Assembly: GCA_918298275.1 (NCBI GenBank)
Contig: CAKJZO010000081.1
Coordinates: 1-64,000, forward strand
Direction of reading: 5' to 3'
Length of the DNA stretch: 64,000 nt
DNA from: Spirochaetota bacterium
GTDB lineage: Bacteria; Spirochaetota; Spirochaetia; Sphaerochaetales; Sphaerochaetaceae
Position numbers and translations under genes: made by a program. How positions within the stretch are numbered: position 1 is the stretch's first letter; every line of letters begins with the position of its first letter. Shown piece by piece: positions 49,746 through 64,000 of the stretch. Below the pieces are notes generated by a model that saw nothing but the letters and a program-made list of their open reading frames with translations, was not told the DNA's origin and did not search any database.

Positions 49746-50627
49746 TCAGAGCTTCTTGAGGTAATGACCCTCGACCCATACGCCTTCGTTGACAATGACG
49801 AAGGCGTTTTTGTCATACTTGCGTACTATCTGGCGAAGCTGATGGACCTCATACTTGGAAATGAGGATGTAGAGCATGTGCTCATCCTCGTGAGTATAGG
49901 CACCGATGGAGTGCAGTTCGGTAACTCCCCTGCCCATCTTGGTAAACACCTCGTACTCGATGTCATCGGGATTGGTCTTGGTGATTATCTTCACCTCGAC
50001 GTTGATGTTCTGCGCATGGAACTTGTCTATTGCAAAAGCGTGCACGACTGCGAAGATCACCGAATAGACAACGATCTGGACATCGAAAAGGAACAGACAG
50101 ACCGCATAGATCACAAGGTTCACGGCAAGGTTCACCTGCCCCACCCTGATGTTGCTGTGGGACTTGGAAATCAGCATTCCTATGATATCCATGCCGCCCG
50201 TGGAAGAGGACATGCGCAGCACCAGACCTATTCCGGCGCCGGAGATAAAGGCACCCACTATGGTCGATGCCAGACAGTCATCCACGATCACCGTGGTGGG
50301 AATCAGTGACATGGCAACCGTGAGGGATGTCACAGCTACCAGGGTCTTCAGGAAAAACAGCTTGTCAAGGCGTGGAAATGCATAGATGAGAATAGGCAGA
50401 TTGAGGGCATAGAAGATGATTCCCGCAATATCCTTCGAACCGAATTCGATATGGATGTAATCGGACAATATCGTTCTTATGAGCTGAGCGATACCCACGA
50501 GGCCTCCGCTGTAGAGGTTGAACGGAACTATGAACAGGTTCACGCCTACAGCATAGAGTGCGCCGCCTATGACACACATCAGATAGCGTTCGAAATGTAT
50601 CTTGTTCTCAAGGTCTCTAGCATTCAT
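49746..50627 (-). CDS. YitT family membrane protein (DUF161/DUF2179)
   Basis: ALYAVGVNLFIVPFNLYSGGLVGIAQLI; SSTGGMDIIGMLISK; C-terminal DUF2179-like. Confidence 0.9.
   Translation of the reverse strand: MNARDLENKIHFERYLMCVIGGALYAVGVNLFIVPFNLYSGGLVGIAQLIRTILSDYIHIEFGSKDIAGIIFYALNLPILIYAFPRLDKLFFLKTLVAVTSLTVAMSLIPTTVIVDDCLASTIVGAFISGAGIGLVLRMSSSTGGMDIIGMLISKSHSNIRVGQVNLAVNLVIYAVCLFLFDVQIVVYSVIFAVVHAFAIDKFHAQNINVEVKIITKTNPDDIEYEVFTKMGRGVTELHSIGAYTHEDEHMLYILISKYEVHQLRQIVRKYDKNAFVIVNEGVWVEGHYLKKL
49780..49811 (+). terminator. Rho-independent terminator for RlmKL embedded in the antisense YitT coding sequence
   Basis: Perfect 10-bp arms ACGCCTTCGT-tgacaatg-ACGAAGGCGT then TTTTTg. Confidence 0.75.
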
Positions 50628-50647
50628 CCTGACCGCCTTTCATGCAA

Positions 50648-50674
50648 AGAGGCTGGGGAATACACCCAGCCTCT
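50648..50674 (-). terminator. Hairpin terminator downstream of mscL
   Basis: AGAGGCTGGG-gaataca-CCCAGCCTCT, minus strand followed by TTTG. Confidence 0.6.
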
Positions 50675-50698
50675 AGACATCATTGGTTCATTTCTCCA

Positions 50699-51070
50699 TC
50701 ACTTGGCTTCTTCAGCAGCCTTCTTTGCCTCTGCCTCTGCCTTTTCCTTCATCCTGTTGATACCGCGGACGATAAGGAAGAGCACAAATGCAGTGAGCAC
50801 GAACTGGATGATGTTCTGGATCAGGTTGCCGTAGCGGATTGCCAGTTCCTCGGTTGTCTCTGTTGCAGCCTTGAGGATAACCTTGAGCTCGCCGAAATCG
50901 GTTCCGCCGACAAGGAGTCCGAGAATAGGATTCAGGATATCCTTGACGAATGAATTCACGATAGCGGTGAACAGACCGCCGATGATGATACCGACTGCCA
51001 TGTCAACGACGTTTCCACGGGAGATGAACTCCTTGAACTCGCCGAAAAAGCCTTTCTTTTCTCCAGCCAT
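50699..51070 (-). CDS. mscL: Large-conductance mechanosensitive channel
   Basis: FKEFISRGNVVDMAVGIIIGGLFTAIVNSFVKDILNPILGL. Confidence 0.95.
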   Translation of the reverse strand: MAGEKKGFFGEFKEFISRGNVVDMAVGIIIGGLFTAIVNSFVKDILNPILGLLVGGTDFGELKVILKAATETTEELAIRYGNLIQNIIQFVLTAFVLFLIVRGINRMKEKAEAEAKKAAEEAK

Positions 51071-51148
51071 ATTAACCCTCCATGGGAAAAAAATCTCTAT
51101 TGTCACTGTTTTATATCAAAACAGGAAAAAAAACAATTGTCAGTTGCC

Positions 51149-52057
51149 TCAGAAAGCCCTGCTCAGGAAGGCTCTCAGCTCCAGTCTGTTGGCCATCTTC
51201 GTTGTCGGAACAAGGTAATAATGGTCCGAAACGACGAAACCGATCGAGAAGTTCTTGTATCTGTGATATCTGAGTCCGATTTCGATGGCCATACCTGCCT
51301 TGACGGAATTGCCGTTGATGAACGTGAATCCCATATCAGGTCCGATGGCACCCCATACATCGCAGTTCCCGACAACCGTAGTTGCAAGGGCCTGGGCGTT
51401 CAGATATGCCTGAAGCTGCATCTGGCTCGGCTTGTAGAACAGATGCTTGGAGGTATAGATACCTACATTGCCCTTCACTCCGATATCGAAGATTCCGGCC
51501 TTGAAGAAGGTCCTGAAATATGAAGCGTTGAATCCTATTGTCTTCGGGGCTGCCGAATCCGGGATGCTGTCCATGTAGCCGATGCCCAGATCCAGATACA
51601 CAAGAGGCTTGTACTCCTCGACCTCGACGGTAGGAACATCGATTTCATCCTCTATGACCGTTGCAGCGGCAACCTCTTCATCTGTTGCAGGCTGTTCGGC
51701 TGGAGTCTCAGGCTCGGAAGTCTCCTCCGGCTGTTCTTCGGGCTCTGCGGGTTCGGGCTCCTCGCTCTCGGTATAGATCTCGGAATCAGTAGCGCTGCTG
51801 GGGCTCCAGATTATCCCGTCGTAGGACTGCTGCAGATACAGGGTGTGCAGGACGGACACGTCCAATGTCAGGGACACCTCGTTGACGTTCCGGTCAACTA
51901 CAATCCATCTTCCGTCCTCCTCTCCATCGACCTGATACCTGTAGAATTCGACATCCGGATCGTTTTCATACCATGTCCAGGTGACGATTCCGTCAAGTGC
52001 GAACAAGCCGACAACAGAGACAAACAGCAGGATTGCGATGAACAACAGTTTCTTCAT
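51149..52057 (-). CDS. Putative outer-membrane beta-barrel protein with acidic Pro/Glu-rich linker
   Basis: Signal peptide MKKLLFIAILLFVSVVGLFA; EPEPAEPEEQPEETSEPETPAEQP linker; alternating-hydrophobicity C-terminal half ending in RAF. Confidence 0.6.
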   Translation of the reverse strand: MKKLLFIAILLFVSVVGLFALDGIVTWTWYENDPDVEFYRYQVDGEEDGRWIVVDRNVNEVSLTLDVSVLHTLYLQQSYDGIIWSPSSATDSEIYTESEEPEPAEPEEQPEETSEPETPAEQPATDEEVAAATVIEDEIDVPTVEVEEYKPLVYLDLGIGYMDSIPDSAAPKTIGFNASYFRTFFKAGIFDIGVKGNVGIYTSKHLFYKPSQMQLQAYLNAQALATTVVGNCDVWGAIGPDMGFTFINGNSVKAGMAIEIGLRYHRYKNFSIGFVVSDHYYLVPTTKMANRLELRAFLSRAF

Positions 52058-52965
52058 CATTTCTCCCAAAGTTTTTCGGGATAGACACCCGCCTTGGTCT
52101 TGAGGGCCAGGTTCTGTTTGACAGTATCCCTGTCCTCCTTGTACGTCATTCCGAACCACTTCTCCGTGGTTGAGAAGACCTTCAGTGTTCCTATACCCTT
52201 CTGGACCATTTCACCAGCGCAGTTGGGAAGCAGGACCTCTGCCTTCGGGCTGGTGGCATTCTCTGCCATGAAGCGCTCGAAGTACTCCGTCATGTAATCG
52301 AAAGCCTTGGGCGTGAATCCGAAGAAGTTCATCGAGACCCACTCATCACCTGTAAGATACACATCGCCTTCCGGAAGATGAGATACTATCCTGTCTCCCT
52401 CGAACTCGATCTTGGTGTTTTCCCTCATTCCCTGGAGCAGACCGTCCTTAACCTGGCAGACACCGCGTGAGACACTGCCCATCGGGCTCATCGTGTTCTT
52501 GAGCAGATAGCCTACCATGGCATGTTCGGTGCTGTCGTTCGAGAGCTTGGAAAGATAATCGCCCAGAATTCCATATGCCTCACGGCCGTAGAAATCATCG
52601 GCATTGATGACGGTAAACGGCTCTTTGATGACGTCCTTGGCACAGAGAAGAGCATGGATCGTTCCCCATGGCTTGGTCCTTCCCTCCGACTGCTTGATCT
52701 GCTCGGCATTCAGAAGCGACTCATGTGTCTGGAACACATACTCTGCGTCCATGTTCCTTGCAATCCTGTCGAAGAGTCTCTCGCGGAAATCCTTCTCGAT
52801 ATCAGGCCTGATTATGAATACGACCTTGCCGTATCCGCTCTTATAAGCGTCATAGACACTGTAATCCAACAGTGCTTCACCGTGCATTCCAACCGGATCA
52901 ATCTGCTTGACTCCACCGTATCTGGAGCCAAGACCTGCAGCAAGAACCAATAACGAAGGCTTCAT
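52057..52965 (-). CDS. Sugar nucleotidyltransferase-like protein (NTP_transferase fold)
   Basis: LVLAAGLGSRYGGVKQIDPVGMHGEALLDYSVYDAYKSG. Confidence 0.85.
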   Translation of the reverse strand: MKPSLLVLAAGLGSRYGGVKQIDPVGMHGEALLDYSVYDAYKSGYGKVVFIIRPDIEKDFRERLFDRIARNMDAEYVFQTHESLLNAEQIKQSEGRTKPWGTIHALLCAKDVIKEPFTVINADDFYGREAYGILGDYLSKLSNDSTEHAMVGYLLKNTMSPMGSVSRGVCQVKDGLLQGMRENTKIEFEGDRIVSHLPEGDVYLTGDEWVSMNFFGFTPKAFDYMTEYFERFMAENATSPKAEVLLPNCAGEMVQKGIGTLKVFSTTEKWFGMTYKEDRDTVKQNLALKTKAGVYPEKLWEK

Positions 52966-53061
52966 TACAACAAATCTCCTGATTATTTACTAGTTGTGAT
53001 TATACTTCAAATACAATGTTTGGCAAGGACTTAAGAAGCCGTTGACGGAAAGTGAGGAAAA

Positions 53062-54213
53062 TCAGCAGAACGGAATATCGATTTCAACCACGAAATCCAG
53101 GTTGAAGCCGCACTTGACCTCTTGCTTCAGATAGCAGGCGATCTGATCTGCGCTGTAGTGCTTCTCCGGAGGAACCACGCAGTCGAATATAACCTTCGTA
53201 AGGTCCTTTCCATCCACCATCCTCACGTCGTGGAAGGTAATCTCCCCGTCGAGCTTCTTCAGTGCAGCTGCAATCTTGGCCTTGATATCATCAAGTTTCT
53301 CGTTGCCCACCTGAACCGGGTCCATATGGATGGTGATCGATATGCCGAGTTCATCCTTGAAATCCATCTCTATCTTGTCCACGATGTCATGGATCTCGAC
53401 TATGCTCTGCGCTTCATCCACCTCGACATGCACTGTCACGAAATCGTTGTGAACCCCGTAGTTGTGAAGCACCAGATCATGGATACCCAATACACCGGGA
53501 TAGGACAGGATCTTGTCTGAAATCATCTTCACCCGTTCATGTGTGGGTTTGATTCCAATCAGCGGAGCAACCTGCTCTTTGATGGTCCTAATGCTGCTGA
53601 TTACAACAAAAACTGAAACAACCAATCCAACCAGGCCATCGATATTGATTCCACTGATTGCTATCACAATCATTGCGACCAGTATTCCGGCTGTAGTTAT
53701 GATATCATTCCTGGAGTCTTCGGCACTTGCTTTCAGAGCAGGCGAATCTATGGCCTTGCCGCATCTGATATAAACGATCATCTGCACGACCTTGACCGCA
53801 ATCGCCAGTGCAAGAGTGATGAAAGTAACTGCAGTGATCGACAGCTCCTGCGGGTCGATGATCTTTGCAATGGATTCCTTTGCGAACACTACTCCGGTGA
53901 GAAGCATCACTATACCGATGGTGAAGCCGAAAAGATATTCATACCTTGCATGTCCGTAAGGATGCTCGCGGTCAGGTTTCTTCTCGACAAGGGTGAATCC
54001 CAGAATCGTGAGAACGCTGGATGCGCAGTCGGAGATATTGTTCGCGGCATCAGCCACTATACCGATACTTCCGGTCAGCAGTCCGATGGCGATCTTCAGA
54101 ATGCCGAGCAGAAGATTGGAAACAATACCGAACGTCCCTGCCCGTTTGGCATAGCGGGTTCGAATCTGAGGTTCGACATTGTATCCGGAGCTTTTTTCTG
54201 TCTGCATCTGCAT
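53062..54213 (-). CDS. Cation diffusion facilitator (CDF) family transporter
   Basis: GSIGIVADAANNISDCASSVLTILGF; KPDREHPYGHARYEYL; start among adjacent ATGs uncertain. Confidence 0.92.
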   Translation of the reverse strand: MQMQTEKSSGYNVEPQIRTRYAKRAGTFGIVSNLLLGILKIAIGLLTGSIGIVADAANNISDCASSVLTILGFTLVEKKPDREHPYGHARYEYLFGFTIGIVMLLTGVVFAKESIAKIIDPQELSITAVTFITLALAIAVKVVQMIVYIRCGKAIDSPALKASAEDSRNDIITTAGILVAMIVIAISGINIDGLVGLVVSVFVVISSIRTIKEQVAPLIGIKPTHERVKMISDKILSYPGVLGIHDLVLHNYGVHNDFVTVHVEVDEAQSIVEIHDIVDKIEMDFKDELGISITIHMDPVQVGNEKLDDIKAKIAAALKKLDGEITFHDVRMVDGKDLTKVIFDCVVPPEKHYSADQIACYLKQEVKCGFNLDFVVEIDIPFC

Positions 54214-54335
54214 CATAACTGGGATTATAGATTCAAATCCCCGAAATGGTAATACCAAATCCTCCATCACTTGCCCGAAACCGTTCAATCAGGTATATAA
54301 TCATTGATTGCCTGCTTTGTTTACGTTCAGGCATC

Positions 54336-54407
54336 GGGTCCATAGCCCAATGGATAAGGCGCATCCCTCCGGAGGATGAAATGCGGGTTCGATTCCCGCT
54401 GGACCTA
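54336..54407 (+). tRNA. tRNA-Arg (anticodon CCG), CCA not encoded
   Basis: GGGTCCA/TGGACCT acceptor, CATCC-CTCCGGA-GGATG anticodon arm (CCG), GCGGG-TTCGATT-CCCGC T-arm. Confidence 0.93.
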
Positions 54408-54408
54408 T

Positions 54409-55560
54409 ATGAAGTACGATTTCGACACAGTGACCGACAGACGAAACACAGGCTCCGTGAAATGGGACGTCAGGGAAAACGAGCTTCCCATGTGGGTCGC
54501 CGACATGGACTTCAAGACAGCCCCTGAAATCCTTGAGGCCATCCAAAGGCGTCTGGACAACGGAATCTTCGGCTACTCCACCCTTCCGGATGAATGGGCC
54601 CTTTCCTATGTCCACTGGTGGGACAAGCGCCACAGCTTCAAGACCGAGGCTTTCTGGTTCAGTTTCTGCACGGGCGTCATCCCGATCATTTCCTGCGCAA
54701 TCCGCGAATTCACGGAACCGGGGGACAATGTCCTGATCCAGGCCCCTGTCTACAATGCCTTCTACAACATAATCAGAAACTGCGACCGCAATGTGGTCGA
54801 ATCCCTGCTTACCTACCGCTCCGGGGAATACTCCATGGACTTCGAAGACCTCGAGGCAAAGCTCTCGGATCCAGAAACAAAGATGTTTGTACTATGCAAT
54901 CCGCACAATCCCGTGGGCAGGATCTGGAGCAAAGAGGATCTTCAGAAAGTCGGAGAGCTCTGCAAAAAACATGGAGTCCTGGTGATCTCGGATGAGATTC
55001 ACTGCGACATCACGGACCCGGACATCCTCTACACCCCGTTTGCTTCAGTATCCGAATGCTGCTTGCAGAACAGCATCACCGCCATGGCTCCCACCAAGTG
55101 CTTCAACATCGCGGGCATACAGAGTGCTGCCGCGATGACCCCGAACCCGGATCTTCGGGCCAGAATCGAAAAAGCTCTTTATCGGAATCTGGCCAATGAA
55201 CCCAATTCCTTCGCAGTAGCGGCAACGGTAGCCGCCTTCGAACATGGAGACCGGTGGCTGGACGAGATGAGAAGCTATGTATATCAGAACAAGCAGACTG
55301 TCCTGGATTATGTGCGGAAGAACATCCCCGGTCTGTATGTCGTTCCTTCCAGGGCCACTTACCTTCTCTGGCTGGACTGCTCCGCATTCACATCGGATTC
55401 CCTGTCATTTGCAGCAGAAATCCGCCGCAAGACCGGACTATTCCTGTCCTATGGCACACAGTACGGTGAATCGGGAAAGCAGTTTCTGCGCTTCAACATC
55501 GCCTGCCCGCGCACACTGCTTCTGGACGGCCTTGATCGTCTCAGGCGCGCCCTCAGCTGA
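54409..55560 (+). CDS. MalY/PatB-family PLP-dependent C-S lyase/aminotransferase
   Basis: MKYDFDTVTDRRNTGSVKWD...PMWVADMDFKTAPEI; CNPHNPVGRIW; SDEIHCDI; PTKCFNIAGIQ. Confidence 0.93.
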   Translation: MKYDFDTVTDRRNTGSVKWDVRENELPMWVADMDFKTAPEILEAIQRRLDNGIFGYSTLPDEWALSYVHWWDKRHSFKTEAFWFSFCTGVIPIISCAIREFTEPGDNVLIQAPVYNAFYNIIRNCDRNVVESLLTYRSGEYSMDFEDLEAKLSDPETKMFVLCNPHNPVGRIWSKEDLQKVGELCKKHGVLVISDEIHCDITDPDILYTPFASVSECCLQNSITAMAPTKCFNIAGIQSAAAMTPNPDLRARIEKALYRNLANEPNSFAVAATVAAFEHGDRWLDEMRSYVYQNKQTVLDYVRKNIPGLYVVPSRATYLLWLDCSAFTSDSLSFAAEIRRKTGLFLSYGTQYGESGKQFLRFNIACPRTLLLDGLDRLRRALS

Positions 55561-55562
55561 CA

Positions 55563-56363
55563 TTACCTCAGGAACTTCTCTATCAACCTATCGACATATC
55601 GTGTATCCAAAGGGTTCTCATTATCCTCAAAGGTCATGATCAGGTTTATTCCGGGTATATAACCTTTCTGGCAATACATGAACTGTTTCCAGAAGAATGT
55701 CTTTCTATATTTAGAATCATCCATCCTGCCGAAGTGCTCCCAGCGGTAAATGTTCCTGGTCCTCTTGTTCAGAACAGTAAAGTCAGTATATATCGGCCTT
55801 GCGCCTTCAATCGGCAACGGATACTCGTACCTGTAAGGAACTCCCGCATCAAACAGTCTGTCTGCGATTATCTGTTCGGATTTCGATCTGACCCTATCCC
55901 CTCTCTTTGTATAGTACTCGGGATCCCCCTCCTCAAACCTTCCTCCCTCATACTGCTTCGCCTGCCACATTCTGGCATATTCGTCATCAGGGAGCACATA
56001 AGGCTCAACCAGAACCCGCTTCCCTTCGTTCATCCCGGTGTAGACTTTCAGCAGAGCATCCTCGTCACTTTGTTCAAGGAATCTGCAAAGCAGTGTTTTC
56101 TCTCTTTCAGCTACTTTTATCGCTTTTTCGTAGTACTCTTTCTGTGCCAGTTTCCTGGCATATCCGATTTCATTCTTCTTTAGATATCTTCCCGTACTAT
56201 CAGTCTTTCCTTCTCTGCAGAAGTATTGGTAATAGGCTCCATCTTTTTTTCGGAATTGTCCTGCCTTGAGAATCCCATACGGCAACCCCTGAATCTTCTT
56301 CTTGAACAACGAAATGGAAGAATCAAAGAAGGCCAGTCTCTTTTTTAACAAATCATACAGCAT
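55563..56363 (-). CDS. Hypothetical protein with PD-(D/E)XK-nuclease-like C-terminal motif
   Basis: RSKSEQIIADRLFDAGVPYRYEYPLPIEGARPIYTDFTVLNKRTRNIYRWEHFGRMDD: E...YTDF...WEH arrangement. Confidence 0.6.
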   Translation of the reverse strand: MLYDLLKKRLAFFDSSISLFKKKIQGLPYGILKAGQFRKKDGAYYQYFCREGKTDSTGRYLKKNEIGYARKLAQKEYYEKAIKVAEREKTLLCRFLEQSDEDALLKVYTGMNEGKRVLVEPYVLPDDEYARMWQAKQYEGGRFEEGDPEYYTKRGDRVRSKSEQIIADRLFDAGVPYRYEYPLPIEGARPIYTDFTVLNKRTRNIYRWEHFGRMDDSKYRKTFFWKQFMYCQKGYIPGINLIMTFEDNENPLDTRYVDRLIEKFLR

Positions 56364-56382
56364 AATCTCACCTAAAACTCTT

Positions 56383-56586
56383 TTCTACAAACATGGACAC
56401 TATTCATTGTTTTGTAGAAATAAATGCCCCTTTTTTCTACAAAAGCCCTTCTTATCGTATTTCTTGTAGAAGAAAATGCTATCCAACCATCCCGGAACCC
56501 AGTTTGTTCTACAAATATCCTTGGTAACTGGCTATTTTGTAGATTATCTTTCTACAATAATTTGGAATCCTTTCCTTTTTGTAGAA
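56383..56586. repeat. Array of eight alternating 9-bp repeats (TTCTACAAA / TTTGTAGAA) forming four inverted-repeat units
   Basis: Forward 56383, 56435, 56507, 56550; reverse 56411, 56463, 56536, 56578; within-unit start offsets 28, 28, 29, 28 nt. Confidence 0.9.
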
Positions 56587-56597
56587 TCCTCCAAAAA

Positions 56598-57290
56598 TCA
56601 TAAGAACTCACCGCTCTCCATCATCGACCGATAGTCCTCGGATGAGAAGATGATGTGGTCCAGGACCTCTATCCCCAGCAGCTGACCTGCCCTTTTAAGG
56701 CGCAGAGTGACTTCAAGGTCATCCGGCGATGGCTCCAGGTTCCCCGAGGGATGGTTGTGCGCCAGTACCACTGCCGTTGCCCTGGCCTTCAGCGGATCCG
56801 AAAAAACTTCGCGGGGGTGGCAAAGCGACCTATTGACCAGGCCGATGCTGACGACATTGACACCCATCAGTTCGTGAGCCCCGTTGAGCATGATGCAGAG
56901 AAAGTGTTCCTGAGGTCTGTCCCCGTAGTGCTTGATGAGTTCGAAGATGGATGCAGGATCGCGGCAGGACTTGGACCTGAAAAAGGAATACCTTCGTCCG
57001 AGTTCAAGACAGGCACAGATCCTGGAGGCATTGGCCGGACCTAGCCCCGGAATGTTCCGAAGGTCTTCAGGAAGAACCTGCCCGGAACCCCGACTGTCAA
57101 TCAGATCCAGAATGTCCTGAGCTATATCCTGTACCGGTCGCATGTGACTGCCCGAACCTATGATGATGCACAGCAGCTCAAGGTCCGCTACGCCCTTAGG
57201 CCCAAGTGAAACGAGCCTCTCTCTCGGCCTCTGCTCCCTGGGCATCTCCCTGATAGATCGAAAATCGATTGTTTTCTTTTCGTACTGCAT
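56598..57290 (-). CDS. radC: RadC family (JAB/MPN domain) protein
   Basis: VLAHNHPSGNLEPSPDDLEVTLRLKRAGQLLGIEVLDHIIF. Confidence 0.95.
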   Translation of the reverse strand: MQYEKKTIDFRSIREMPREQRPRERLVSLGPKGVADLELLCIIIGSGSHMRPVQDIAQDILDLIDSRGSGQVLPEDLRNIPGLGPANASRICACLELGRRYSFFRSKSCRDPASIFELIKHYGDRPQEHFLCIMLNGAHELMGVNVVSIGLVNRSLCHPREVFSDPLKARATAVVLAHNHPSGNLEPSPDDLEVTLRLKRAGQLLGIEVLDHIIFSSEDYRSMMESGEFL

Positions 57291-57305
57291 ACTTCCTATA
57301 ACAGA

Positions 57306-57319
57306 AAAACTGCAGTTTT
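57306..57319. promoter_or_regulatory. Perfect 14-bp palindrome upstream of radC
   Basis: AAAACTGCAGTTTT, 16 bp from radC start. Confidence 0.35.
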
Positions 57320-57434
57320 CATTAGAAATACCGACACCGAAAAACGAAAAAAGTTAGTTTTTTTCTTCAGATCGGAAGGATTGAATTCATTATTCCTCTG
57401 GCTGTAAACTTAGACGAGGCAGGATCACGCTGAG

Positions 57435-59309
57435 ATGAGAACTTATACCGGGAAAACCAAGATACTGATAACGGCACTGATGGTGTTCTGGGTTGTCTTT
57501 CAATTGTGGTTCTGTACGTTCGGCATAATTTCATCAGTCAACCTCAGGGCATTTCATTGCATGTTTCTCCTGCTGTTCGCTTTCCTTCTTTATCCCTCGA
57601 GCAAGAAGCAGGAAACTGAGCTTTCCCGCCCTAAAATCGTTGATATCATTCTCATAGCCATAGCTGTAGCTGCATTCGGATACATGATTGCCAGATACAC
57701 GGAATTCGCACGTACCGGAGGAAGGATAGATACACTTCAGATGTTCATCGCAGTCGCAGGAATCCTGATGGTGTTCGAAGCAGGAAGAAGGACATCCAGA
57801 AGCCTTGCGATCCTTGCACTGGTTTTTCTTGCATACAACTTCTTCGGCAGATTCATCCCCGGCTATCTGGGGCATAACGGATTCACACTGAAGAGGATTC
57901 TCATCACCCAGTTCTGGGGAACCCAGGGAATACTGGGAACCGGAGCAGGAGTTTCAGCTACCTACATATTCCTGTTCGTTGTTTTCGGAGCGTTTCTCAA
58001 ATACAGCGGATTCTCGAATTTCATCAACGACCTGTCCCTTTCCCTCGTCGGCAAGACACCCGGCGGTCCTGCAAAGGTCGCAGTAATTGCAAGCGCGCTA
58101 CTCGGTATGGTCAATGGTTCCGCAGTAGCAAATGTTGCTACAACCGGAACGATAACAATACCCTTAATGAAGAGAACCGGCTATAAAAATGAGTTCTCTG
58201 CTGCAGTTGAGGCCACCGCTTCTACCGGAGGTCAGTTCTGTCCTCCCGTAATGGGAGCTGCAGGATTCATCATGGCCGAATTCCTGAACGCAAGCTACAC
58301 GACAGTCATGATTGCCGCTCTTGCACCTGCATTCCTGTACTATCTGGGTCTGATCATGTCAGTCCATTTCGAGGCAAAAAGACTCGGTCTTACTGGTATT
58401 CCGGAAGAAGACATTCCATCTGCACGGGAGGTTCTGAAAAACGGTTGGCATCTGATGATTCCGCTAATCGTACTCATCACCGTGATGGTCTTGGGCAAAA
58501 GCCCGCTTTATGCCGCGACGTTGGCAATACCGGTCACAGTGGCTTCGTCGTGGCTGAGAAAAGATACCCGCATGACGTGGGACAAGATCATCGCAGCCTG
58601 CGTGGAAGGAGCAAAAGGCGCCGTTACCGTCGGTGTTTCCTGTCTGCTGATAGGAGTGATAATCGGAACTGTAACACTCACAAGCCTCGGCCTGAATCTG
58701 GGATATATGATCCTGAGCGGCTTCACGGGAAGCAACATCTATTTCGTTGGACTTCTGGTGATGATCATTTCCGTGATACTCGGAATGGGTGTTCCCGGAG
58801 TCGCTGCATATGTGATTGTCCAGGCGGTCGCAGTTCCGGTACTGCTCAAGGCAGGTGCGCTTCCCCTTGCAGCCCATATGTTCTGCCTGATCTATGCCTG
58901 CCTTTCGAACATCACTCCCCCGGTTGCCATAAGCTGCTACGTCGCTGCAGGGATTGCAAAAGCAGATCAGACAAAAACCGGCCTTATCGCAGTCAGGCTT
59001 GCACTTGCAGGATTCATCATTCCGCTTTTCTTCCTTGCAAATCCAGTACTGCTTCCTCTTGCAGGCAATCACGCTGCGGCTACGATTCTTGCCGTTGCTT
59101 CCGCGGCAATCGGAACAGTGATGCTGTCCGGAGGCCTTGAAGGCTGGCTTCTGGCAAAACAGCGCTGCATCGAAAGAATTCTCTGCGTCGCAGCCGGCCT
59201 GCTGCTTCTCTATCCCGGAACGATAACGGACATAATCGGATTATGCGCATCCGTTGTCCTTATTGTCGTGCAGGTAAGTAGAAATAAAAGAGAGAATGCG
59301 ATAATGTGA
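57435..59309 (+). CDS. TRAP transporter fused permease (4TM/12TM, TAXI type)
   Basis: ~624 aa polytopic; GGPAKVAVIASALLGMVNGSAVANVATTGTITIPLMKRTGY; VLGMGVPGVAAYVIVQ. Confidence 0.93.
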   Translation: MRTYTGKTKILITALMVFWVVFQLWFCTFGIISSVNLRAFHCMFLLLFAFLLYPSSKKQETELSRPKIVDIILIAIAVAAFGYMIARYTEFARTGGRIDTLQMFIAVAGILMVFEAGRRTSRSLAILALVFLAYNFFGRFIPGYLGHNGFTLKRILITQFWGTQGILGTGAGVSATYIFLFVVFGAFLKYSGFSNFINDLSLSLVGKTPGGPAKVAVIASALLGMVNGSAVANVATTGTITIPLMKRTGYKNEFSAAVEATASTGGQFCPPVMGAAGFIMAEFLNASYTTVMIAALAPAFLYYLGLIMSVHFEAKRLGLTGIPEEDIPSAREVLKNGWHLMIPLIVLITVMVLGKSPLYAATLAIPVTVASSWLRKDTRMTWDKIIAACVEGAKGAVTVGVSCLLIGVIIGTVTLTSLGLNLGYMILSGFTGSNIYFVGLLVMIISVILGMGVPGVAAYVIVQAVAVPVLLKAGALPLAAHMFCLIYACLSNITPPVAISCYVAAGIAKADQTKTGLIAVRLALAGFIIPLFFLANPVLLPLAGNHAAATILAVASAAIGTVMLSGGLEGWLLAKQRCIERILCVAAGLLLLYPGTITDIIGLCASVVLIVVQVSRNKRENAIM

Positions 59310-59316
59310 ATCTGCT

Positions 59317-60315
59317 ATGAAAAAGATTCTGTTGATTGCTTCAATTCTCATATCGGCGACATTCTGCATATTTGCCGGCGGTTCGAAAGAAACCAGAAGC
59401 TCCAAGGAAAGCGCTGCATCCGACGGACACCCCAAGGTAATCATCCGCTTTCCCACTGCAGGAGCTTCCGGAGCCCTGTACTCAGTCGGCGCTGCAATTA
59501 CGAATATGTGGAACACCCAAATCCCGTTCGTAAAGGCATCAAGCCAGGCATCGGCGGGGGGAATCGACAATCTGAACCAGATAGCAGACGGCGAAAGCCA
59601 GGTTTCCATAGCAATCAGCTCCAACTGCTGGCAAAGCTTCAACGGAACAGACAGTTTCGAAGGAAGAGCAAATCCGAATCTCAGGGTCATAGCAGGCCTA
59701 TACCTCAATCCGAATCAGGTAGTCGTAACCTCAAGAAGCGGAATCAGGACTCTTGCCGATGTCAAGGGAAAGCACTTCGCCGTTGCGGCATCGGGTTCCA
59801 GCGCCGAGGGAGAATGCCGCAATCATTTCACGGCTGCAGGACTGAAATATCCTGATGATTTACGTGCCGAGTACATCTCATTTTCTGACTCGGCGGAGCT
59901 GTTGGGAAACGGCCAGATCGACGGTGCATGGATCATGAGCGGAATCCCCGCCTCCGCAGTTAGCCAGACACTGTCTTCCGGATGCAGACTGCTGGATATC
60001 GATGAAGAAACGATCTCAAAACTCAAATCCGAATATCCCTGGTATGTCACTTATACCATTCCTGCAGGATCCTATCCGAACCAGAACGAAGATGTCCGCA
60101 CTACCGCAATCAAAATGGTGATGTTCTGCTCCGCAGAGCTTGATGAAGAGACGGTATACATGCTGACAAAGACGCTTTGGGAGAATATCGGAGAACTCGG
60201 CCAGTCCCAGGGAAACCTCAGGGGCCTGACTGCAGAGGAAGCTGTCCGTGACATCGCAGGGCTTCCGCTTCATGACGGGGCAAAGCGTTATTACAGCGAA
60301 ATCGGAGTCCTGTAA
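59317..60315 (+). CDS. TAXI family TRAP transporter solute-binding protein
   Basis: Signal peptide with lipobox-like CIFAGG; FPTAGASGALYSVGAAITNMWN; ASGSSAEGECRNHFTAAGL. Confidence 0.92.
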   Translation: MKKILLIASILISATFCIFAGGSKETRSSKESAASDGHPKVIIRFPTAGASGALYSVGAAITNMWNTQIPFVKASSQASAGGIDNLNQIADGESQVSIAISSNCWQSFNGTDSFEGRANPNLRVIAGLYLNPNQVVVTSRSGIRTLADVKGKHFAVAASGSSAEGECRNHFTAAGLKYPDDLRAEYISFSDSAELLGNGQIDGAWIMSGIPASAVSQTLSSGCRLLDIDEETISKLKSEYPWYVTYTIPAGSYPNQNEDVRTTAIKMVMFCSAELDEETVYMLTKTLWENIGELGQSQGNLRGLTAEEAVRDIAGLPLHDGAKRYYSEIGVL

Positions 60316-60425
60316 TCACATACTCCAAACCGAACCTACCTCTTCTTTTTTTCGGATTATTTGGTTCACAAATCCGGTTTTAAACCTTAGAATTAAACGT
60401 AGAACTAAACAAAAGGCGGAACTCA

Positions 60426-61958
60426 ATGGAAAACCTCAATCTCACGATGTTCAAACAGTATGACATCAGAACCAGATATAACGCACTCAGCGACAGTCTC
60501 AAGGAAAGGCTCTACAACGCAATCGCAGTCTATGTCAGAGACAGCATCGGGGCAAAATCGGTAGTCATCGGCCGTGATGCGCGCCTCTATGTGCCCGAAC
60601 TTGCAGAGGGCATCGCAAGACTGCTGCGCAAGGCAGGTCTTGACGTCTATATCAATCCACTTCCGATCTCCACATGTCAGTTCTACTACAGCTGCATGAA
60701 GCACCGTGAGAGCGCAGGCATAATGGTCACAGCCAGCCACAACCCCGGCGAGTATGTCGGACTCAAGCTGATCGCACCCGAAGTTGCCCCGATAGCTCTG
60801 GGATGCGGACCTGAGGGCGGAATCGCAAAGATCAAGGAGCTGTTCATTGCCGATGCCAAGGTCGAGGGTGACAGACAGGGAAAGATGTATGTCATCAACT
60901 ATCTGGAAGACTACATCAACTACTGCATGAAGCTTTCCGGCGTCACGGAAGGCAGTCTCAAGGGAACAAGGATCATGCTCGAGTTCCTCAACGGTTCTGC
61001 CGGAAGCGAGATGGCCCTGGCCTTCCAGAGAGCCGGTGCCGATGTGGAACTGCGCGATGTCGCTCCCGACGGATTTTTCTGGAGAGGAGACCCCAACCCG
61101 ATCATCGAATCATCGATTGCTCCGACAAGAGCCGCGATGAGAGAAGGAAAGTTCGATTTCGGATTCTGCTTCGATGGTGACGGAGACAGAGTTGACCTGA
61201 TGGCCCCCAACGGAGAGCAGATTGTACCGGGTCTGAACATGTCCATCATCGTCAAGAAGATGATCGATATCTTCCACGGCACAAAGATGGAAGTCTATGC
61301 CGATGTCAAGGCAATCCCCCTCTCACTGTGTGAGATTGCAAAGAGCGGCGTCAAGGTCCACATCATCAGAAACGGACACTCCTTCATCAAGGAGAAGCTT
61401 CGCGAGAACTGCGCAAACGGCTATTTCGCTGCAGAAGAGGAAAGCGCCCACTACTACATGAACTACCCGTATGATCCGGATGATCTTTCGAAGGGCTATG
61501 CCGCCATAGAATCCACCCTGTTCATCGCTCTTCTGAGCGCAAGATGCTACAAGGAAGACCCGGCAGCCTATGAGCGTGCCTATAAGCTTCAGACCTCGCT
61601 CTTCCGCGAGCGCGAGTGGCCGCTTCACTGCGAGGCAGCACCCGAGAAGATGCCGCATCTGATGGATGAAGTCGAGAACAAGATGCGCAGCCTTGGTGCC
61701 ACAATCATCAAGGACATGGACGACGGAAGCGACCTCGATGCATGCCTGATGAGATTCAACCTGCCGCAGACCTTCAGCGCAGACTATTCGCTTGAAGGAA
61801 AGAAGTGGGTGCAGGTCGCACAGAGAATCAGCCGCAGCGAGGAAGCCATGTGCCGCTGGGAAGTCGTTTCCAACGATCCTGATCTGTGTGCAGAGTACAA
61901 CGGCTATGTAAAAGAAATAACCGACCGCTATGTCGCGGCCGGCTATGCCAAGTATTGA
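60426..61958 (+). CDS. Phosphomannomutase/phosphoglucomutase
   Basis: FKQYDIRTRY; GIMVTASHNPGEYVGLKL; DFGFCFDGDGDRVDLM; AEEESAHYYM. Confidence 0.9.
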   Translation: MENLNLTMFKQYDIRTRYNALSDSLKERLYNAIAVYVRDSIGAKSVVIGRDARLYVPELAEGIARLLRKAGLDVYINPLPISTCQFYYSCMKHRESAGIMVTASHNPGEYVGLKLIAPEVAPIALGCGPEGGIAKIKELFIADAKVEGDRQGKMYVINYLEDYINYCMKLSGVTEGSLKGTRIMLEFLNGSAGSEMALAFQRAGADVELRDVAPDGFFWRGDPNPIIESSIAPTRAAMREGKFDFGFCFDGDGDRVDLMAPNGEQIVPGLNMSIIVKKMIDIFHGTKMEVYADVKAIPLSLCEIAKSGVKVHIIRNGHSFIKEKLRENCANGYFAAEEESAHYYMNYPYDPDDLSKGYAAIESTLFIALLSARCYKEDPAAYERAYKLQTSLFREREWPLHCEAAPEKMPHLMDEVENKMRSLGATIIKDMDDGSDLDACLMRFNLPQTFSADYSLEGKKWVQVAQRISRSEEAMCRWEVVSNDPDLCAEYNGYVKEITDRYVAAGYAKY

Positions 61959-61961
61959 AAC

Positions 61962-61986
61962 AAAAAGCAGGGGCGATTGCCCCTGC
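61962..61986 (-). terminator. Rho-independent terminator for the leftward genes
   Basis: GCAGGGGC-gatt-GCCCCTGC; minus strand continues into TTTTTG. Confidence 0.65.
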
Positions 61987-62078
61987 ATTACACCATAGCA
62001 TTACACTATAAATTTCAGTAAGAGCGGATGCAGCGGACCCTAAAAGAGTTTATATAATCAATTCCTGCAGTCTGCTCT

Positions 62079-62708
62079 TTACTGTTCTTTTTCCTCATTA
62101 TCCACGACTTCAGCCTCACCTACGATCACCTCCTCTTCCTTAACCTTACCGTTGCTCTTGAAGAGGACGATGATCGGAATTGCAATCATGATTACACCGA
62201 TGACGATGAATCCGATGGAAAGGATCTGGACAACCTTCACCAGGGTTTCCATCGGCTTGAAGAAAAGAAGCAGAGCAATCAGGGCCTCGATCACAGCCTC
62301 GACGATGAAGCTTTTCCTCTTATCCTCTACGCCGAACTTTCCGGCCACAGCAGAGTTCTGAAGAGCAACTATTGCAGAGAAAACAAGGCTGATTGCAAAG
62401 ATATAGACCATCACGGTGAGGGCAGTATCGGTTGCGAACAAAGCTACCAGTACAGCTGCGATACCGAGAGTCAGGGATTCGAAACCCTTGATGAGGGTAA
62501 GGTTCTTGGTCAGGTCGGTGAACTTCCACTTCTTGACGCCCATGAGGGTGTAGAAGCCGTCAAGGGCGGCTCCGATACCTGCGGCAATCATGACGATCTT
62601 CAGAAAAGACTCGGTATGATTGATGATCAGAATGCCCAGCGCAAGAACAACAGCACCGATGCAGACTGTAACAAGAAGACCTTTTTTCCCGCTGATAGTC
62701 TTGGTCAT
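62079..62708 (-). CDS. DUF308/HdeD-like membrane protein
   Basis: Six hydrophobic segments in two-TM repeats, ~210 aa, charged C-terminal tail. Confidence 0.65.
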   Translation of the reverse strand: MTKTISGKKGLLVTVCIGAVVLALGILIINHTESFLKIVMIAAGIGAALDGFYTLMGVKKWKFTDLTKNLTLIKGFESLTLGIAAVLVALFATDTALTVMVYIFAISLVFSAIVALQNSAVAGKFGVEDKRKSFIVEAVIEALIALLLFFKPMETLVKVVQILSIGFIVIGVIMIAIPIIVLFKSNGKVKEEEVIVGEAEVVDNEEKEQ

Positions 62709-62709
62709 G

Positions 62710-63636
62710 TCATTCCCCCTTCACGATTGAGTATGTCTCGACATTGAAGATAAGAAGCGAATTGGGATCCATCGATCCGGTTGCTCTGTCTCCGTAGCCC
62801 AGATCCGGATGAATGTAGAAGATGTAATGGCTGCCCATCGGCATGAGCATCACGCCTTCACGGAAGCCCTCGATGACACCAGAAAGCGGGAATGTGGAGT
62901 GCTCACCGCGGGCATAGGAGCTGTCGATTACCGTTCCGTCCAGGAGCTTGAGCTCATAGTCCAGTTCGACACTGTCCGTAGAAGCTGCAAATTCTCCTGT
63001 ACCCTGGCGGACAATCTCATACTGAAGACCGCTTCCCGTGGTATAAATGCCCTCTTTTGTCGCATTTTCCTTGAGGAAAGCCTCTGCTCTGGCAAGGTTT
63101 GCATCCGCAACGGCGGCCATCCTGACATCGTAATCGGTCAGATAATCATTGAGCATCTGGTTAAGCTCCTCGATGGAGTAACGAAGGCTGCCGGTCATGT
63201 AGTCATAGATGCCCATTGAACCGAAATAGGGTTGAAGTTCGGGATAGACCTGAGCCTGATACATGGAGAAGTAATATGATGCGTAATCGGGTCCGTAGTA
63301 ATCTGCGACATAAACTCCGAATGCATAACTGAACCTCTCTGCAAGCGTGGACGGAAGAACAAGCTCAATGTCCTCCTCCGTCTCCTCGGCAGATGACGAT
63401 TCCTCTGAAGAAGCAGTTTCCTGAGGCTCCTCAGATTTCGGCTCCTCGGCCTTCTGCTCTTCTGCAGGCTGTTCCTCTGCCGGTTTGACCTCAGCAGCTT
63501 TTTCCTCTGCAGGCTGCTGTGCAGCAGTCTGGGCAGGAGCATCCCCGTCATTCTTGGAACCCTTGGATGAGCATCCTACGAAGAATGCAAGGGCTACAAC
63601 CAACAAAAGCAATAGAACTGAAATCTTCCTGAGCAT
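62710..63636 (-). CDS. FKBP-type peptidyl-prolyl isomerase lipoprotein with acidic low-complexity linker
   Basis: Lipobox FFVGCSS; EEKAAEVKPAEEQPAEEQKAEEPKSEEPQE linker; TVIDSSYARGEHSTFPLSGVIEGFREGVMLMPMGSHYIFYIHPDLGYG. Confidence 0.9.
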   Translation of the reverse strand: MLRKISVLLLLLVVALAFFVGCSSKGSKNDGDAPAQTAAQQPAEEKAAEVKPAEEQPAEEQKAEEPKSEEPQETASSEESSSAEETEEDIELVLPSTLAERFSYAFGVYVADYYGPDYASYYFSMYQAQVYPELQPYFGSMGIYDYMTGSLRYSIEELNQMLNDYLTDYDVRMAAVADANLARAEAFLKENATKEGIYTTGSGLQYEIVRQGTGEFAASTDSVELDYELKLLDGTVIDSSYARGEHSTFPLSGVIEGFREGVMLMPMGSHYIFYIHPDLGYGDRATGSMDPNSLLIFNVETYSIVKGE

Positions 63637-63663
63637 ATCAAACTCCCGAAATGTGATATCAAA

Positions 63664-64000
63664 TTATCCTTTTTTCTTCCTGCGCCTTTCAATCAGGCAC
63701 ACGAAATAAACACAAAGCAATCCGATCAGCGCTCCGACAAGAGCACCGAGACCATCGGCAATCAGGTCCGCAGCCTCGAAGAACCTTCCGAACCTTGGCT
63801 GGCAGAGCTCAATGGTATAGCCGCAGAGAAAAGACAGAAAGAAGGCTCCGAGAACCGGCATGAAATTCGACAGGAATATCCTGTGCCGCACGGAATTATG
63901 GAAATCGACGAAGAAAAGGAAGCCGAGGGCCATGTAGGCAAGGAAATGGGCACCCTTGTCCTTGCCGACAATGTACTGAGGCACGTTCACATCCTTTGCA
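63664..64000 (-). CDS. VanZ-like family membrane protein, N-terminus likely beyond window
   Basis: DKGAHFLAYMALGFLFFV...YTIELCQPRFGRFFEAADLIADGLGALVG; reading frame open to the window edge. Confidence 0.75.
   Translation of the reverse strand, partial: AKDVNVPQYIVGKDKGAHFLAYMALGFLFFVDFHNSVRHRIFLSNFMPVLGAFFLSFLCGYTIELCQPRFGRFFEAADLIADGLGALVGALIGLLCVYFVCLIERRRKKKG

Follow-up and report, generated by a model that had tools for sequence, protein, structure and literature searches.

In RAYT/REP/REPIN/BIME systems, the gene of an enzyme is flanked by its own short inverted repeats, which are also dispersed between genes in regularly spaced, alternating arrays, and the enzyme and repeat families co-diversify (PMC2817692, PMC3116915). 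The locus considered here lies in a 64,000-nucleotide stretch of bacterial DNA (the window) and pairs an array of short inverted repeats with the gene of a putative PD-(D/E)XK nuclease. We found no description of such a gene/array element in the open-access literature, and it looks like an undescribed two-part DNA element. From the comparison of sequences we consider it probable that the array is a private multi-copy recognition site of the neighboring protein, and that gene and array together make up a self-contained, partly mobile element. This reading draws on the association of arrays with homologous genes, on arms that are private to each locus, on helical phasing, on joint change of array and N-terminal domain, on dispersal, and on catalytic residues that are intact.

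The array fills 234 bp between radC and a 266-aa open reading frame, both on the minus strand. An earlier note, made from the sequence alone, had placed it in the gap between radC and a PD-(D/E)XK-like gene, to which we add the orientation: the array is directly 5' of the reading frame, whose start is at 56363 on the minus strand, and 3' of radC, which stops at 56598 on that strand. On its other side, the 266-aa reading frame is followed after 2 bp by a convergent aminotransferase-like gene. The features are these:

55563 to 56363, minus strand: cognate gene, 266 aa, with an N-terminal alpha-beta-beta-beta-alpha domain and a predicted C-terminal PD-(D/E)XK nuclease domain
55563 to 55913, minus strand: codons 151-266 and the stop codon, predicted PD-(D/E)XK nuclease domain; E163, D194 and E209 invariant; matches the C terminus of PADLOC PDC-S68
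56124 to 56623, no strand: putative specificity cassette, array plus N-domain codons; few differences from sister genome G127; equivalent segment replaced between G133 and G131
56178 to 56363, minus strand: codons 1-62, putative arm-recognition region; diverges or swaps along with the array in sister species
56383 to 56419, no strand: unit 1, nearest the gene, TTCTACAAA - 19 bp - TTTGTAGAA
56435 to 56471, no strand: unit 2, TTCTACAAA - 19 bp - CTTGTAGAA; starts 52 bp (5 turns) from unit 1
56507 to 56544, no strand: unit 3, TTCTACAAA - 20 bp - TTTGTAGAT; starts 72 bp (7 turns) from unit 2
56550 to 56586, no strand: unit 4, TTCTACAAT - 19 bp - TTTGTAGAA; starts 43 bp (4 turns) from unit 3
56598 to 57290, minus strand: radC, conserved upstream neighbor, given as context outside the element

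The eight 9-bp arms lie within 56383 to 56586 in strictly alternating orientation, each with at most one mismatch to TTCTACAAA or its complement, and the earlier note's description of them as four units was verified at every coordinate. That note also described conserved arms beside unrelated spacers, and indeed the window spacers have a mean identity of 0.32 to one another, yet a length that is constant at 19-20 bp. Its statement that the window holds no second such array is borne out by a scan of the 64 kb for pairs of inverted units built on a common arm: the array was the sole place found, and when the intergenic region was simulated 3000 times with a Markov model, no simulation reached this result. 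A search of the window for the pattern with up to one mismatch gave 18 matches against 10.6 expected (1 of 100 shuffles reaches 18), and 8 of the 18 are concentrated within the 204 bp of the array. The unit is absent elsewhere in the window's own genome (1.83 Mb draft, 86% complete), in which we saw no clear sign of arm avoidance, with 13 other single copies.

The window protein has no family in Pfam, NCBIfam or PHROGs. Its C-terminal half resembles the C-terminal nuclease end of PADLOC PDC-S68 (E 1e-24), and an alignment of 55 homologs holds S160, E163, Y179, E180, D194, W208-G212 and Y219 invariant, with E163, D194 and E209 intact in 135 of 135 family members. The predicted structure (pLDDT 93.8) finds its best fold matches by Foldseek among PD-(D/E)XK enzymes, though these are weak (Bax1, prob 0.99 and E 0.012; DrdV; Card1), and a PDB sequence search with the nuclease gave nothing credible. 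By its conserved acidic active-site residues, the product of the adjacent gene is a PD-(D/E)XK-type putative nuclease. The N-terminal 100 residues model as a helix, three strands and a long helix (pLDDT 92.9), for which Foldseek with the isolated domain gave no confident relative or usable fold assignment; an MBD identity was considered and rejected, the match being weak (E 5.5e-4), confined to one member and of no use for fold assignment. In the same taxonomic family this domain (profile positions ~14-89) also starts ~600-aa AAA+ ATPases (L100-L105), and given those copies it may be a general recognition module. The nuclease domain ends ~1200-aa RecD-like helicases (PADLOC PDC-S68; L062, L064, L068-L072, L096, L098), some of them on viral contigs. 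Transposase families are absent from the matches of family members, and no constant partner gene was found around the homologs past local synteny. Carriage by phages or plasmids was considered and set aside: the matches on plasmids are partial, and most of them carry an annotation as AAA or RecD-like ATPases, and the phage side amounts to one unannotated faecal 'phage' contig at 36%. Two more paralogs occur in the window's genome (G000:C84:2632-3450 and G000:C71:11417-12289), with no recognizable array within 330 bp on either side.

Homologs were sampled as 59 loci from one genome scan, after which eighty further loci were read. A match is present in 32 of the 139 genomes of the window's taxonomic family, with up to 12 matches per genome in its genus. 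Under a strict test that asked for two units and allowed no more than 3 mismatches in 36 positions, an array adjoins 55 of 127 non-redundant homolog loci versus 10 of 1782 control windows, several of these 10 lying in those same loci, which gives an odds ratio of ~67. The remaining 72 of the 127 loci have no array in the strict scan, whether lost, degenerate, further away or absent. One locus of a looser class, L149, holds a real CRISPR array and was excluded from the statistics; in this genome (G126) the CRISPR array lies ~14 bp past the stop codon of the family gene, with a 36-bp repeat, GCTTTAGATATCTACAAAATAACACGTCTCCAAAGC, and 30-bp spacers. Near-identical tandem-repeat arrays do occur in some relatives (L012, L022, L066), as would suit an origin from plain decayed tandem repeats or chance similarity. 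Such an origin is nonetheless extremely improbable for the array of the window, in view of the simulations, of this association and of the contrast between conserved arms and spacers with an identity of ~0.3, which is seen in the window and in many relatives.

The arm is private to each locus (AACAGCAAA, GACGGAAA, AACTAAGC, TAGCCGTAA, CTACTATCT, CAGCCAGGG and TACCCCGA, among others), and across the family these locus-specific arms measure 9-11 bp and the spacers 12-27 bp. The earlier note had suggested looking for its unit beside homologs in other genomes; arrays do recur there, but the arm sequence is different each time, so that a search for TTCTACAAA units elsewhere would miss related arrays. 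Among the three roles it had offered, that of a recombination or nuclease recognition array is the one backed by the comparison of loci.

The position of the arrays bears on another of those roles, a cooperative operator. Among the 55 positive loci, the array is upstream of the gene in 40, downstream in 22 and on both sides in 7; 15 non-redundant loci have downstream arrays exclusively, and some arrays, such as those of L147, L148, L170, L179 and L181, lie between convergent genes. The gene is bracketed by arrays in L123, L162, L164, L121 and L036, and has its array on one side only in the window. Being found upstream, downstream or both, the arrays are therefore not generally promoters, and the operator fails as a general role. 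A protein that represses itself through phased sites in its own promoter, with catalysis incidental, would account for an array at -230 to -17 of the start codon, as in the window and many spirochaete paralogs, and phased inverted sites are typical of cooperative operators. We consider this autoregulatory explanation unlikely, given the downstream arrays, the arrays of up to 23 arms that lie far from the gene in Murdochiella, and the invariance of the catalytic residues. No sigma-70-like promoter was found in the array region of the window.

The spacing of the units is informative with respect to how the array would be bound. The earlier note had called it unequal, which it is, but it is not irregular, since the starts in the window are 52, 72 and 43 bp apart, or about 5, 7 and 4 helical turns. 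Across the family, 64 unit spacings, with each distinct spacing of an array counted once, cluster at 40-43, 51-54, 62-64, 69-73, 84-85 and 95-96 bp, with a Rayleigh R of 0.78 at 10.5 bp that lies above all of 20000 jittered sets, though related loci are not independent and shared ancestry thus inflates R. Spirochaetes, Lachnospiraceae, Fibrobacter and Murdochiella, which are separate lineages, sit on one spacing ladder, and the ortholog L011 (G131) has one spacing of 62.5 where the window has 72.5, a difference of 10 bp. The constant inner gaps in the survey of relatives' arrays are partly built into the detection, whereas the gaps in Murdochiella and G024 came from variable-gap searches. Whole-turn spacing is a signature of proteins binding the same face of DNA and argues for such binding here, and the phasing fits cooperative binding.

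Spacing tied to the DNA helix also weighs against an element that acts as RNA, namely a set of hairpins in untranslated regions that the protein binds or processes. The arms are complementary, and the alpha-beta-beta-beta-alpha order of the N-domain, together with several weak matches (E 0.5 or worse), resembles double-stranded RNA-binding domains. However, the folding z is -1.34, mismatches on the sense strand of the arms show no G-T excess (A-C 63 versus G-T 37), dispersed intergenic copies occur in all gene contexts, and an Rfam search with the array gave only sub-threshold chance matches. The run of RNA hairpins that the earlier note had entertained is unsupported on these grounds, and we regard an RNA-level role as very unlikely.

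An indication of what would read the arms comes from their change alongside the protein. Pairs of family proteins with more than ~70% identity mostly have the same arm or a very similar one, although three of these close pairs show partial shifts, and below ~65% the arms are unrelated. Most of the genus shares synteny at the radC locus, yet the arms there are species-specific: TTCTACAAA in the window genome (G000) and G127, GTTATAAAA in G133, AACAGCAAA in G131, the TTGGCTGA type in G129 and G130, and ATGCATACA in G134. Between G133 and G131 the flanks of this locus are 89-90% identical and residues 63-266 are 95-97% identical, whereas the array and the first ~57 codons are just 48% identical and cannot be aligned, and the two arms are unrelated. 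The window and its sister G127, with arms in common, have 7 differences in the 500 positions of 56124 to 56623 versus 646 in 8500 of the flanks (98.6% identity in the cassette and 92.4% outside it, P = 1e-9); this high identity could be the result of purifying selection instead of exchange. A diverged N-domain with a shifted arm is seen again in L167/L176 and L163/L164. On the simplest reading of these patterns, the arm is recognized by the N-domain, and the two travel or evolve as one cassette of array and N-domain. Because the domain has no confident structural match, we infer its DNA binding from the co-swap alone.

In some genomes the arrays extend well beyond the cognate gene. In two genomes of Murdochiella the unit GCCAGGG-N-CCCTGGC occurs 129 and 86 times, and the arrays examined are all intergenic, with 3-23 arms at mostly 53-54 bp spacing. 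One site in G139 carries three arrays, and the orthologous place in G140 has no motif between flanks that are 95-97% identical, though other DNA also differs there. At least two more paralog/array families occur in Murdochiella (L035/L038 and L048/L052), with other arms and with array copy numbers that are unequal between the two species; no clean empty site was found for the L038 array, whose place is occupied by a GC-rich minisatellite. G024 belongs to the window's family and its genome is 98% complete; a search there that permitted gaps of 20-25 bp gave 16 exact units, every one with a gap of 23 bp. Eight dispersed intergenic copies in this genome are built from three 41-bp units each and measure 123 bp, with a 1-bp offset in one of them, and their flanks are unrelated. 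Two further three-unit copies bracket the cognate gene. A few dispersed units are present in Pseudobutyrivibrio and Fibrobacter, and L066 has no units away from its gene.

Many intergenic sites in some genomes, multi-unit arrays and phasing on the same face would also suit a chromosomal anchor or nucleoid-organizing site, similar to those of partition or macrodomain systems, that is bound and not cut by a nuclease-derived protein. The conservation of E163, D194 and E209, the presence of one site only in the window genome, beside the gene, and the fast change of the arm sequence, which would be unusual in a structural site, make this explanation quite unlikely.

Returning to the array as a private recognition site of the neighboring protein, we infer arm binding, dimer geometry, cleavage and copying or drive as follows. 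The N-terminal domain would read the 9-11 bp arm, and a dimer (or pair) would span the inward-facing arms of one unit with its PD-(D/E)XK domains over the spacer, such that the length of the spacer matters and its sequence does not. Successive units on one helix face would let bound proteins stack or cooperate. The array and the N-terminal coding segment would act as a specificity cassette, changed or exchanged jointly, and with different arms kept by the paralogs of one genome no cross-talk would be expected. By analogy with RAYT/REPIN and with an unrelated enzyme, the nuclease may cut or nick the units, with repair by copying driving expansion, cassette exchange and, in some genomes, dispersal of arrays to many intergenic sites. 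We acknowledge that a nuclease that cuts at its own locus would have to be restrained, that 72 of the 127 loci gave no array in the strict scan, and that the window genome shows no dispersal. It is possible, though we lean slightly against it, that these elements form an undescribed class of selfish DNA in which the nuclease cuts its own phased array, repair multiplies and spreads the array and drives horizontal replacement of the cassette, and rapid turnover of specificity prevents cross-reaction with paralogs and rival alleles. If the proposed element is real, nature offers many cases within one genus in which a small modular domain of a protein and the 9-11 bp it recognizes in DNA have changed jointly. 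These pairs of N-domain and target would make a ready-made data set for a DNA-recognition code. The family would also be a candidate source of compact sequence-specific nucleases and would account for some of the short repeats that are dispersed in gut and rumen bacteria.

Several known systems share part of this organization. Like CRISPR and TIGR loci, the element has repeats and unrelated spacers next to a nuclease gene. The earlier note had correctly judged the array not CRISPR-like: its arms are 9 bp, inverted and alternating in place of ~28-37 bp direct repeats with constant-length spacers, and the spacers of family arrays drift between related copies, which sets them apart from both systems. 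No cas gene was recognized by eye among the reading frames of 50000-64000, and no Cas or Nop-domain protein beside the window array. Recombination-promoting nucleases (Rpn) have a PD-(D/E)XK fold and several paralogs per genome. Rpn (YhgA-like, PF04754) is described with a highly variable domain and linked to horizontal transfer and phage defence (PMC5350276, PMC10327210). The family described here differs in having its variability at the N terminus, where it is coupled to a cis array, and in a comparison of 55 members with Pfam at E 0.1, PF04754 was matched by none. PDC-S68, one of the PADLOC phage-defence candidates, has the homologous C-terminal nuclease domain, but the present protein has no helicase and arrays are seen with the stand-alone family, for which we know of no defence test. 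Homing endonuclease genes are similar in having a presumed specific nuclease, a rare long site, and sharp, gene-conversion-like replacement of a segment at an otherwise conserved locus; here, however, the site is kept and multiplied beside the gene and is not disrupted by it, and the family proteins have no match to LAGLIDADG, GIY-YIG or HNH.

RAYT/REPIN is the nearest analogue. The likeness lies in genes flanked by inverted copies of their own repeat, as in the bracketed loci listed above, in regularly spaced alternating arrays, and in enzyme and repeat families that diversify jointly. Intergenic dispersal varies within the family: it is seen in Murdochiella and G024, with a few copies in Pseudobutyrivibrio and Fibrobacter, and is absent from the window's genome and for L066. 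The enzyme is PD-(D/E)XK-like here and an HUH Y1 tyrosine transposase related to IS200/IS605 there, the arms are separated by spacers of 12-27 bp instead of forming the tight hairpins of an imperfect palindrome, and family arrays are without a GTAG/GTGG head. Whole-turn phasing, frequent confinement to the gene's own locus, and the swapping of N-domain and array as a cassette belong to the family arrays. Because enzyme class, site geometry and cassette swapping differ, the element is not a member of RAYT/REPIN; if our interpretation is correct, it represents a second bacterial solution to the REP/RAYT pattern, enzymatically unrelated to the first.
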